From Rhodothermus marinus (GTDB lineage: Bacteria > Bacteroidota > Rhodothermia > Rhodothermales > Rhodothermaceae), in assembly GCF_009936275.1 (NCBI RefSeq), contig NZ_AP019797.1, positions 62,001 to 126,000 on the forward strand: a DNA stretch of 64,000 nucleotides, in the 5' to 3' direction. The stretch's first letter is position 1. Each line of letters begins with the position of its first letter. The position numbers and the translations under genes are program-made. Positions 27,713-31,391 of this stretch are shown piece by piece. The notes beneath the pieces are model-generated. The model was given only the letters and a program-made list of their open reading frames with translations, made no database searches and had not been told where the DNA came from.

Positions 27713-28771
27713 ATGAGAAAGCTGCGTTGGAACTGGTCAAGTCTCTGGATGGCGGGGCTGTTACTGGCCGCCTGCTCGCTTTTCGAGCCGGAAAAAAAGA
27801 CGCGTTTTGATTACGGGGGCGATCCTCTGCCCGGTACCGAGAACCTGTACAATCTACGTTTATCTCCGGACGGCGAATGGGTGGCGCTGATCCGGGCCTA
27901 TACGCCGGAACGGCTCGATCCGCCCAATCAACTCTGGCTGGTCCATCGCGATGGTCAGCAGATGCGTTTTCTGGGACCCAGCATCGGTAGTGCCGACTGG
28001 TCGCCGGATGGTAAACGGCTCGCATTGACTTACGAGCCAGGGCTTTGCTGTGATGTTCATGTGGTGACGCTGGATCTGGAAAGTGGCCAGGTGGTGGTCT
28101 GGACGGGAGCCGATACGTTGCTGCTGTCGCATCCGACCGCCTCGTTTCCGCACTGGTTCCAGGACGGCCAACGACTGCTGGTTTCTGTTATCGGAAAGGC
28201 ATACGGCCAGCTTTACGAGACAGGCATCTACGTCTTAAACCTCGTACACCGACAGGTGGAAGGCCCCCTGGTTAAGTCGATGGTAGGGGCTCAATTAGGC
28301 GGGCGGGATCGTTTTGCGGTGGGGATTATGCCGCAGCCGCAGGGGAGGGTTTACCGGGAGAACGCCGTGCGATATGAATTTGCCACAGGCGCGTTGACGG
28401 TGTTGACGGATTTTGGTCCGGAGGAAGCTTTTCGGTTTGAAGCGACGCCCAGCCCGGTGGAAGACCTGATCGTGCTGGAGCGGCGCGTGGAGGGTGTGCC
28501 ACAGCTTTTTCTGATGGACGGAAAGGGGCGCATCCTGCGACAATTGACCGAGCGGGGCGGCCACAACCCGCGCTGGAGCTATGATGGGCGGGCCGTGTTG
28601 TTTTTGCGGGATGTGGAGGCGGGTCCGGGGGCCCGGAATGTGCCCTTCGTGTACTGGTTGGACGAGGACCGTGAGGAGCCGCTCTGGCCGATGTTGCCGG
28701 ACTCGGTGCCGGCGTTTCCTGCGCTGGACACGTTGCTTGCCCAGTGCATGCTCTGTGGAAAACTCCCGTAA
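27713..28771 (+). CDS. TolB/PD40-like beta-propeller lipoprotein
   Basis: A 352-residue lipoprotein with lipobox LLLAAC near residue 21. It has the PD40 repeat hallmark SPDGxxxA in LRLSPDGEWVALIRAY and ADWSPDGKRLALTYEP, a worn copy PHWFQDGQRLLVSV, and PRWSYDGRAVLFLRD near the end, fitting a TolB-like propeller. CC in GLCCDVHV and C..C near the C terminus (AQCMLCGK) are the other cysteines. The next gene, a T9SS pseudo-subtilase, starts 19 bases later, so the two are probably made together. Role unknown; it may present or bind the exported partner. Confidence 0.75.
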   Translation: MRKLRWNWSSLWMAGLLLAACSLFEPEKKTRFDYGGDPLPGTENLYNLRLSPDGEWVALIRAYTPERLDPPNQLWLVHRDGQQMRFLGPSIGSADWSPDGKRLALTYEPGLCCDVHVVTLDLESGQVVVWTGADTLLLSHPTASFPHWFQDGQRLLVSVIGKAYGQLYETGIYVLNLVHRQVEGPLVKSMVGAQLGGRDRFAVGIMPQPQGRVYRENAVRYEFATGALTVLTDFGPEEAFRFEATPSPVEDLIVLERRVEGVPQLFLMDGKGRILRQLTERGGHNPRWSYDGRAVLFLRDVEAGPGARNVPFVYWLDEDREEPLWPMLPDSVPAFPALDTLLAQCMLCGKLP

Positions 28772-28790: not shown

Positions 28791-31121
28791 ATGTACCGAG
28801 GCTACAACCTGGGGCAGGCCATGACTTTAACGCTTCTGATGATTATTGGCCTGCAAGAAGGGCGAGCGCAGATCATTCCCAACGACCCTCTATTTCCCCA
28901 ACAACGGCCATATCTCTCAGAGATTCACCGAATCGATCAGGCCTGGCAAATCAGCCGTGGTAGTAGTTCGACGCGAATAGGCATTTACTCGTTTGTTGGG
29001 TTGCGAACCTCGCATGAAGATCTTCAGGGGCGGGTGCTGGCGCCCGTTGGGATAAACGAACACCCGGAGTTGGATGTTGCCACGGAGATGGCGGGGATCA
29101 TTGGGGCTAACACGAACAATGGCAAAGGCATTGCCGGAATCGACTGGAACACGCGGCTGCAGTTTTACAGTTTGCTACGGCCACCTCGAGCTGACGACCT
29201 CTTGGACGGACGCTTTACCATACGCTTGCCCGGTGGAGCAAATGCCACCTATTATCTGGATCTGCGCAAGGCCAGTGAAATGTTGGAGCAGGGCAGAAAC
29301 AACGGGGTGCATATTCATCTGTTCAGCTTCGGACTTCCCAGCGGTAAAGCGGAAGATTATCCATTACCTGAGCCTCCTCAGACTTGGGAGTATCTGAATA
29401 TGCCCAGGCCGATTAAACTGGAAGACATTGGGAAAAAAATACTTGAAGCTGCTAAGAAAGTTTTGCAGTCTTATTGTAGCGATGCGGAACCTTTTTCTTG
29501 GATTCTGGGGAGTTGCTACAGCCCGCCGGATCCTTTTAAGCTCTTTCGGGAGAGCATCGGGCGAGCCGTGCAGGCGGGTGGGATTGTCATTGCTCCCGCT
29601 GGAGATTTAGAAGATGAGAACCTGTTGCCTACGGAGTTTCAGCCAGGACAGTTTGAAAAATACGCTGTCACGGTGGGAGGTGTAACTCGCGATCCCATCA
29701 GAAGAGTAGTACCCTGGGCATATACTCGGCCAGCCAATTATGTGGATGTAGCTGCATTTGCTGGTCCAGTGATCGGGCCTTCAGGACAAGGGGATCAGAT
29801 ATACAATTTTTCCTTCACCAGTACGGCAGCAGCTGCTTCAATTGCGGCTGGAGTTTCGGCTCTTATCAAAGCGGTGCGGCCGGAGCTTTCCGGAGAAGAT
29901 GTGGAACAGATCCTTCGTCGCACAGCAAATGGTTATAACCAGCCTGTTCCCAACGAACACATGGGATATGGTGTAATTGATGCGCGAGCAGCGCTGGAGT
30001 TTGTAGTGAACAACGATATTCAACGAATCAAAAAACGGGTGGATCGTGTGATTACAAATGCGCCGATGCCACCAGGTGGTCAAGAATGGATTTATCTAAA
30101 GGATTTTCCCTTACAATATTTTCCGCGTTCTTATTGTCCCTATGCATTTTATGCCTACGGCAAACGATATGAGTTTACTGCGCGGGTAGAGTTTCCTCGT
30201 CCTTTTGAGGCGTCTCCTCAGGTGTGGGTAAGATGGGCGGATAGTGATGGCGTCGATACAAGATTTAAACTTGCTGATGGTGGAGTTCCTCCTTTTGCGG
30301 AATATATAGCAACCTATGATCCGTTCTGGAAGGATTTGACTGTAATTTCTGTAGATAGAAACGGATTTGTAATTAAAGGGAGATACTGGTATGTGCGCTT
30401 CTATGATGCACTGGGACGTGAATGTACAGTGACCAATTATATTCCTAAACGACCAGAGCAATTTCAGATCGCTTACACAGCAGTAGGCCGCTTGAGCTCA
30501 GTATCTCCACCGCCGGCTCCGGCAAACCTGCGTATTACGAATCGAGGGGCCGTTGGCGCCATGCCACGTCTGGAATGGAACGCTAGCCCAGGAGCCGAGG
30601 GCTACTACCTTTACCGTCGCTGTGCCAATAACTGGACATGCCAGAATTTCCAACGTATAGCTACGACCACTGGCACCTCATGGATAGATTCGGGAGTTAT
30701 TCAAGGCACTTATCAGGATTATTATACCTATCAGGTAACCGCCTATAATGTAGCTGGTGAGTCAGCTCCGTCAAACCAGGTGTCTACTTATGGTGCACCG
30801 TTTACCCCCTATTCACTGGAGGCGCTCTCTGATTCGCTACAGCTGGTACGATGGGTACCAGAAACTTTTGCCCTGCGTGTAATAGGACCAAATCCTTTTT
30901 CAACCACAGCTATCTTGGAGTTAGATTTGCCGGAGGCGACGCAAGTACAACTGATAATATTTGATGTCTTGGGGCGAGAGATCGTGCGCCCGATAGATCA
31001 GTTTTATGAGGCTGGACGCCATCGGATACGCGTATGGGGGGAGAACTGGCCGCCTGGTATGTACTTGTATCGTTTGGAAGCTGGAAACTGGGTACACACC
31101 GGTACCCTTGTGCGACGTTAG
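28791..31121 (+). CDS. T9SS-secreted S8 subtilase-like protein lacking the catalytic triad
   Basis: A 776-residue protein with signal peptide MTLTLLMIIGLQEGRAQ. Residues about 45-410 follow the S8 fold. The Asp motif is replaced by IGIYSFVGLRTSHEDLQGR (Ser67 in the Asp place), the GHGTHVAG motif by DVATEMAGIIGA (Val96 in the His place), and GTSMAxP by STAAAASIAAGVSAL (Ala346 in the Ser place). The oxyanion Asn is Asp272. Residues about 570-670 form a fibronectin III-like domain, and the last 80 residues a T9SS type A sorting domain (GPNPFSTTA...FDVLGRE...GMYLYRLEA). Base use is visibly more AT-rich than the neighbours. It is probably a binding or structural protein, not a protease. Confidence 0.8.
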   Translation: MYRGYNLGQAMTLTLLMIIGLQEGRAQIIPNDPLFPQQRPYLSEIHRIDQAWQISRGSSSTRIGIYSFVGLRTSHEDLQGRVLAPVGINEHPELDVATEMAGIIGANTNNGKGIAGIDWNTRLQFYSLLRPPRADDLLDGRFTIRLPGGANATYYLDLRKASEMLEQGRNNGVHIHLFSFGLPSGKAEDYPLPEPPQTWEYLNMPRPIKLEDIGKKILEAAKKVLQSYCSDAEPFSWILGSCYSPPDPFKLFRESIGRAVQAGGIVIAPAGDLEDENLLPTEFQPGQFEKYAVTVGGVTRDPIRRVVPWAYTRPANYVDVAAFAGPVIGPSGQGDQIYNFSFTSTAAAASIAAGVSALIKAVRPELSGEDVEQILRRTANGYNQPVPNEHMGYGVIDARAALEFVVNNDIQRIKKRVDRVITNAPMPPGGQEWIYLKDFPLQYFPRSYCPYAFYAYGKRYEFTARVEFPRPFEASPQVWVRWADSDGVDTRFKLADGGVPPFAEYIATYDPFWKDLTVISVDRNGFVIKGRYWYVRFYDALGRECTVTNYIPKRPEQFQIAYTAVGRLSSVSPPPAPANLRITNRGAVGAMPRLEWNASPGAEGYYLYRRCANNWTCQNFQRIATTTGTSWIDSGVIQGTYQDYYTYQVTAYNVAGESAPSNQVSTYGAPFTPYSLEALSDSLQLVRWVPETFALRVIGPNPFSTTAILELDLPEATQVQLIIFDVLGREIVRPIDQFYEAGRHRIRVWGENWPPGMYLYRLEAGNWVHTGTLVRR

Positions 31122-31391
31122 GTAGCCCTGGCGTAAACAGGCTGGTTACAGCTCAAAAAATTTCGCGGGGTATGGGCTTTCGCGCAATCCAGTTTGGCGG
31201 CTTTCAGCGAAAAGGCGGGCATGACCAGCTCCTGTAGGCGTTCGATAGAAATCAGGCGGGCGGGTCCCGGTGCCTGCGTAAGGACGCACGAGACCATGCA
31301 CCTTCTGGTTTAAAATAGCCAACCAGAAAGCGCAGTTTCCCGAAAGTGTGGGCTATCCTGGCTCTATGCGTAACAGTCGGGCGCTGACGCC

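Follow-up and report, generated by a model that had tools for sequence, protein, structure and literature searches.

Organization of the locus

The window analysed here is a 64,000-nucleotide stretch of the Rhodothermus marinus genome (NCBI RefSeq assembly GCF_009936275.1, contig NZ_AP019797.1, positions 62,001 to 126,000 of the forward strand). It contains a gene for a subtilisin-like (S8) protein in which the residues of the catalytic triad are replaced. Directly upstream lies a gene for a beta-propeller lipoprotein, whose stop codon is separated by 19 bases from the ATG of the S8 gene. The S8 protein and eight relatives form a clade, members of which are referred to below as pseudo-subtilases, and a propeller gene adjoins every one of them. 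The initial annotation of this DNA had recognized the S8 protein as a pseudo-protease; it had missed both a lectin-like middle domain and the propeller partner, which appears to co-evolve with it. The features of the pair, in window coordinates, are as follows.

27713..28771, plus strand: partner gene; lipoprotein beta-propeller (PD40/TolB-like) of 352 residues, lipobox LLAAC; PD40 match of 31.6 bits (cut-off 20.9)
28791..31121, plus strand: pseudo-subtilase gene, 776 residues; open, intact frame with a Pfam S8 match
28791..28868, plus strand: signal peptide, residues 1-26, read by eye; the S8 domain follows immediately
28869..30017, plus strand: S8 (subtilisin-like) domain, approximately residues 27-409 (Pfam, clade alignment, structure model, Foldseek)
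30018..30488, plus strand: region read as an H-type-lectin-like domain, approximately residues 410-566 (PF09458 as top match, structure model, Foldseek)
30500..30788, plus strand: FN3-like domain, approximately residues 571-666 (weak Pfam fn3 match, 3mpc)
30885..31118, plus strand: type IX secretion system (T9SS) type A C-terminal sorting domain, residues 699-776 (TIGR04183)

The open reading frame in the mechanically made list begins at position 28581; the ATG at 28791 provides a signal-peptide-like start. The protein matches Peptidase_S8 (PF00082) with 53.5 bits against a Pfam cut-off of 21.8, and a whole-genome search of the 3.43-Mb single-contig genome returned three S8 matches, this gene included. 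Preservation of the S8 fold, as originally claimed, is borne out by this match and by Foldseek alignments to subtilisins (see below). The clade alignment places a family-specific insert inside the domain, at about residues 187-247.

The sorting tail scores above the NCBIfam cut-off for TIGR04183 (30.4 bits versus 23; 33.8 bits in the genome search) and below the Pfam cut-off for PF18962 (21.7 versus 27). The genome contains 49 T9SS tails over the cut-off and encodes SprA, the sole T9SS component searched (2607.7 bits). Its signal peptide and sorting tail make export to the cell surface the most likely fate of the protein. Of the two accessory domains in the initial annotation, the sorting domain is upheld by TIGR04183, whereas the FN3 match is weak (12.3 bits in Pfam; E = 0.002 with the Fn3-like chain 3mpc), and the domain is named here only "FN3-like". 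When named genome contigs were scanned with a single query, one named near relative came up, at the contig end of a Rhodothermus metagenome-assembled genome, with 96% identity over 52 residues.

Loss of the active site

The active-site residues were assigned by alignment to L002, an intact subtilase encoded in the same genome, and to 25 further S8 rows. All four key positions are altered, by exactly the residues previously named:

28989..28991, plus strand: Ser67 at the catalytic Asp site (alignment; Ser in 8/9 clade members and 0/26 other S8s)
29076..29078, plus strand: Val96 at the catalytic His site (alignment; His in 0/9 clade members)
29604..29606, plus strand: Asp272 at the oxyanion Asn site (alignment; Asn in 1/9 clade members)
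29826..29828, plus strand: Ala346 at the catalytic Ser site (alignment; Ser in 1/9 clade members)

An AlphaFold model of the full protein, of moderate confidence (predicted local distance difference test score, pLDDT, 62.8; predicted template modelling score, pTM, 0.58), agrees with these assignments. Ser67 ends the strand 37-41, Val96 starts the helix 69-79 and Ala346 starts the helix 319-336 (secondary structure in model numbering, which is that of the protein minus 26). By secondary structure, the three residues occupy the places of subtilisin Asp32, His64 and Ser221. Foldseek searches with the model retrieved subtilisins, furin and mirolase, with template modelling (TM) scores by target length of up to 0.73.

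The clade alignment was also scanned for conserved Asp, Glu, His, Ser, Cys, Lys, Asn, Thr and Tyr residues that could have relocated. No replacement triad emerged. Among the His, Ser and Cys residues near the site, Ser67 alone is conserved across the clade without also occurring in active enzymes, and none of the triad residue types (Asp, His, Ser) has entered the active site from another position. The only invariant His in the clade, H75, is the structural HPDL histidine, also found in 24 of the 26 other S8s. Tyr126 is conserved in 9/9 members of the clade versus 0/26 of the others. The S8 domain directly follows the signal peptide in the window protein and in four relatives, whereas about 200 residues precede it in L002, so the propeptide was lost along with catalysis. 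Loss of the catalytic residues marks the protein, at the level of sequence, as inactive, and it is almost certain that it is not a serine protease.

A clade of inactive subtilases in the class Rhodothermia

Searches covered whole genomes of the order, of the class (245 genomes) and of a sample of the phylum (395 genomes). Eight relatives were found (in genomes G035, G052, G065, G033, G055, G240, G208 and G131), all within the class Rhodothermia and in other genera. The same residues are missing from these proteins: counting the window protein, Asp and His are lost in 9/9 and Ser and the oxyanion Asn in 8/9, G131 having retained the Ser and G065 the Asn. All nine members carry one extra residue just after the Asp site. 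Asp, His and Ser are kept in all 26 other S8 rows from the same searches (one locus is represented twice). Two members depart from the common architecture. The one in G131 (L081:7397-9328) is divergent, with a lipoprotein-like N-terminus, its Ser kept and its Asp and His lost. In the one in G240 (L079:5394-7985), the lectin-like domain and the T9SS tail are separated by a long additional stretch resembling a beta-helix with helical repeats after it.

In the tree the nine pseudo-subtilases form a single clade, with 100/100 support, that spans several families of the class. Only two pairs have a measurable dS (1.65 and 1.80), the others being saturated; in these two the ratio of nonsynonymous to synonymous substitution rates (dN/dS) comes to 0.23 and 0.21. 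The window protein itself gives no usable value, as it is saturated against the other genera and its only close relative spans 52 codons. These sequence comparisons establish a single origin of the inactive clade and purifying selection on it. Retention of the replacing Ser67 in 8/9 members also speaks for selection. The pseudo-subtilases thus very probably constitute a selected family, as the initial annotation had proposed in preference to random decay, with a qualification concerning dispensability that is taken up below.

The propeller gene accompanies both dead and active subtilases

A propeller lipoprotein gene adjoins 9/9 pseudo-subtilase genes, lying upstream in all eight loci other than that of G208, where it is downstream. 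A propeller gene also lies beside or near 9 (weakly a 10th) of the 18 other S8 loci examined, including that of active L002; two of the loci, L042 and L108, were among those used to build the propeller profile, and Pfam detects PD40 in both independently. L002 (G000:C1:1848266-1850914), with its triad intact, its approximately 200 residues before the S8 domain and a T9SS tail, lies directly behind its own propeller lipoprotein gene, forming an active pair in the genome of the window (G000:C1:1847087-1850914; L042:7088-10915). That the propeller is found beside dead and active S8 proteins alike indicates that the pairing outlived catalysis.

Propeller and subtilase trees agree: both contain a G055-G131 pair, a G240-G208 pair and a core group. 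Tree distances are correlated over the nine pseudo-subtilase pairs (r = 0.956, permutation p = 0.0001) and over 18 pairs (r = 0.83, p = 0.0001; p = 0.005 when permuted within type), values that are inflated by shared species history. Such history alone is insufficient to account for the match, since G055 belongs to family f12 together with G052 and G065, yet both genes of its pair group with G131. Both G055 and G000, the genome of the window, contain a dead pair alongside an active one, and the propellers group with those of their own type. From the matched trees, the placement of G055 and the grouping of propellers by type, the two genes seem to be passed on together and to evolve as one unit. 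Pseudo-subtilase and propeller are likely to be a functional pair, in which the propeller would most likely interact with the pseudo-subtilase while anchored to the outer membrane.

Two further loci display unusual arrangements. In G074 (L108:7366-13075), a pseudo-type propeller gene is found next to an active-type propeller gene and an active subtilase gene, and the locus lacks a pseudo-subtilase. In G035, near-identical genes (L035:6483-6956 and L035:10885-11361; start MIGTLTQWEEIVRDPALQDLPYKIETNARGQLILSPHK) stand on either side of the pair.

A lectin-like domain follows the S8 fold

The S8 domain is followed by a middle domain of about 155 residues. Six of the eight members tested have H_lectin (PF09458) as their highest-scoring Pfam match there. 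A separate model of this domain (pLDDT 77.4, pTM 0.73) placed Helix pomatia agglutinin at ranks 1-2 in Foldseek, with probabilities of 1.00 and 0.98 and E-values of 0.009 and 0.026, at a TM score by target length of only 0.5; discoidin I appeared lower among the matches. A PDB profile search with the domain returned nothing meaningful. Several active S8 proteins also carry a related domain, and L002 aligns across the same region. From the Pfam and Foldseek matches, the domain is read as H-type-lectin-like and would probably bind glycans. Together with the T9SS tail, it lends support to the carbohydrate or surface binder suggested in the initial annotation; the inhibitor role suggested at the same time found no positive evidence.

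A proposed role in binding

On the reading favoured here, the pair goes back to a module whose subtilase was an active protease. In the Rhodothermia clade, catalysis and propeptide were lost while the pairing was kept. The subtilase fold would then have been retained at the cell surface as a binding module beside the lectin-like domain, and the propeller lipoprotein, anchored in the outer membrane, would contact the pseudo-subtilase. Since the pairing was kept after the loss of catalysis, selection has most likely acted on the ability of the complex to recognize or adhere, rather than on proteolysis. Export, the physical complex and a glycan ligand are all things that we infer. On balance, we favour an old, conserved clade of dead subtilases working with the propeller by binding as the whole explanation. 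That the complex binds glycans or surfaces is a less secure suggestion, made tentatively. More tentative still is the possibility of a two-protein Bacteroidota surface module in which the protease of one clade has become a permanent non-cutting receptor, a propeller-tethered complex of pseudo-subtilase and lectin recognizing external glycans or proteins.

A number of observations count against a role of this kind. The gene has been lost or broken repeatedly. In G037, a sister genome with 95% DNA identity, the segment corresponding to window positions 28815-31152 is cleanly missing and the propeller gene is intact. In G041, codons 1-44 of the pseudo-subtilase are fused to its last 129 codons; G038 retains no more than the final 80; and G061, syntenic to G065, has a C-terminal piece only, 56% identical to the G065 protein. 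The window genome itself has a second propeller copy (G000:C1:2347280-2348335; L104:7281-8336), 97% identical to the first and followed by a frameshifted, truncated pseudo-subtilase stub; the second copy in G037, 95% identical to the propeller of the window, has a broken pseudo-subtilase start behind it. The differing breakpoints point to several separate losses. In addition, a single in-frame stop is present in each of three relatives, G033 (L009, TGA), G240 (L050, TAG) and G208 (L051, TGA); these may be true nonsense alleles or assembly errors. The pseudo-subtilase gene is dispensable, like those of many surface proteins, and retention of the propeller where the pseudo-subtilase is lost suggests that the propeller can work alone. 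The G131 member, for its part, retains the catalytic Ser and shows no T9SS tail. The PF09458 matches lie below the cut-off of 24 (17.3 bits, E = 0.0054, for the window protein; 19.4 bits, E = 0.0012, for that of G035), and both sugar binding and the complex with the propeller are putative.

Separately, a glycine- and alanine-rich repeat protein (L104:8846-10003, with repeats such as GGLGAGAG) is encoded adjoining the second propeller copy of the window genome.

Alternative explanations

The propeller could instead be a potempin-like inhibitor or immunity lipoprotein, with the pseudo-subtilase acting as a decoy or competitor for such an inhibitor or for the substrates of L002. In Tannerella forsythia, inhibitory lipoproteins, the potempins, are encoded immediately ahead of the KLIKK proteases (PMC7296668), and a complex of one subtilase, mirolase, with potempin C has been solved (8ehe). 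Here, too, a lipoprotein gene stands directly ahead of the gene for an exported protease, in 8/9 pseudo-subtilase loci and in the active pair of the window genome, and mirolase is among the closest solved structures to the window protein. However, an inhibitory propeller would explain the active pairs and not the persistence of the pair without catalysis: once catalysis is lost an inhibitor becomes needless, and yet the pair persists and co-diverges. Furthermore, potempins are small inhibitors of active proteases, whereas the partner here is a PD40 propeller and the protease is dead. Each subtilase type has a separate propeller subfamily, which does not suggest cross-binding. We consider this explanation improbable.

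A decaying subtilase gene, its active site lost and drifting toward deletion, would account for the losses and remnants in G037, G041, G038 and G061 and for the in-frame stops in three relatives. But the inactive state is common to a fully supported clade across several families of the class, and synonymous sites are at or close to saturation although the protein sequence has been conserved, the dN/dS staying low where it is measurable. Besides, the reading frame in the window is unbroken over 776 codons and includes both signal peptide and sorting tail, and variation in presence and absence fits a dispensable surface protein equally well. Simple decay was rejected as the principal explanation on the grounds of the clade, the dN/dS values and the congruence with the partner; the losses remain real. 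Decay is thus unlikely to be the whole story, yet it describes events in some lineages.

It is also doubtful that the two genes are neighbours only, co-travelling by chance or shared mobility with no interaction between their products. Several propeller copies have no adjoining subtilase, and the repeated gene on both sides of the G035 pair would fit such mobility, but adjacency in all nine cases, one orientation, tight spacing (as in the window) and trees that match across distant genomes all speak for a bond between the two. The least probable alternative by far is that the protein still acts as a protease or other hydrolase, through catalytic residues that have moved or changed in kind. A 2007 paper by Siezen et al., cited in PMC2605481, reportedly deals, to judge by its title, with S8 relatives whose catalytic residues differ, but in this clade no conserved His, Ser or Cys could substitute in the triad, the invariant H75 is structural, and the oxyanion Asn (in 8/9) and the propeptide are lost.

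Relation to known systems

The favoured explanation, binding by a dead subtilase together with its propeller, has partial precedents. Inactive serine protease homologues, 42 of 966 over five families, were noted in a survey of 91 prokaryotic genomes (PMC2605481). Few bacterial pseudo-subtilases have been described, those found being CspA and CspC of Clostridioides difficile (Peptostreptococcaceae), which have a degenerate triad, as does the window family, and act by binding and signalling (PMC6636752). The Csp proteins act in spores, and in CspC the prodomain is retained and a jelly roll is inserted; the window protein, in contrast, has lost all three triad positions and the prodomain, and possesses a lectin-like domain, a T9SS tail and a propeller partner. 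PIMMS2 of Plasmodium has likewise been proposed to be a pseudoenzyme; it is subtilisin-like, is found at the surface and is extended at its C-terminus (PMC5520436), but it is eukaryotic, differs in architecture and partly keeps the triad in some orthologues. H-type lectins (Helix pomatia agglutinin, discoidin I) provide the top Foldseek matches and the top Pfam match of the middle domain, which differs from them in its position inside a T9SS cargo protein and in a score under the Pfam cut-off. The propeller recalls, by description, PorZ, a T9SS component with two beta-propellers that is reported to bind anionic lipopolysaccharide (PMC8545088), in being a surface beta-propeller linked to T9SS cargo. 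PorZ, however, acts for the secretion system as a whole and combines two propellers with a C-terminal domain, whereas the partner described here is a lipoprotein with a single propeller, encoded beside one cargo gene. We found no publication on the family, its architecture, its pairing or Rhodothermia pseudo-subtilases, in a search covering few subscription papers, so an earlier description may exist.

Pseudo-subtilases as a kind were already known; what is new is a family of them whose architecture is novel and whose partner is conserved. A single genome holds the module in both its active and its dead form, and comparing the two pairs side by side makes it possible to ask what role subtilase and propeller have apart from cutting. 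Annotation by the S8 profile would label the genes of this clade as serine peptidases, which is wrong for the clade. The conserved trait is the pairing, not catalysis, and this bears on the annotation of PD40 lipoproteins encoded beside T9SS proteases.
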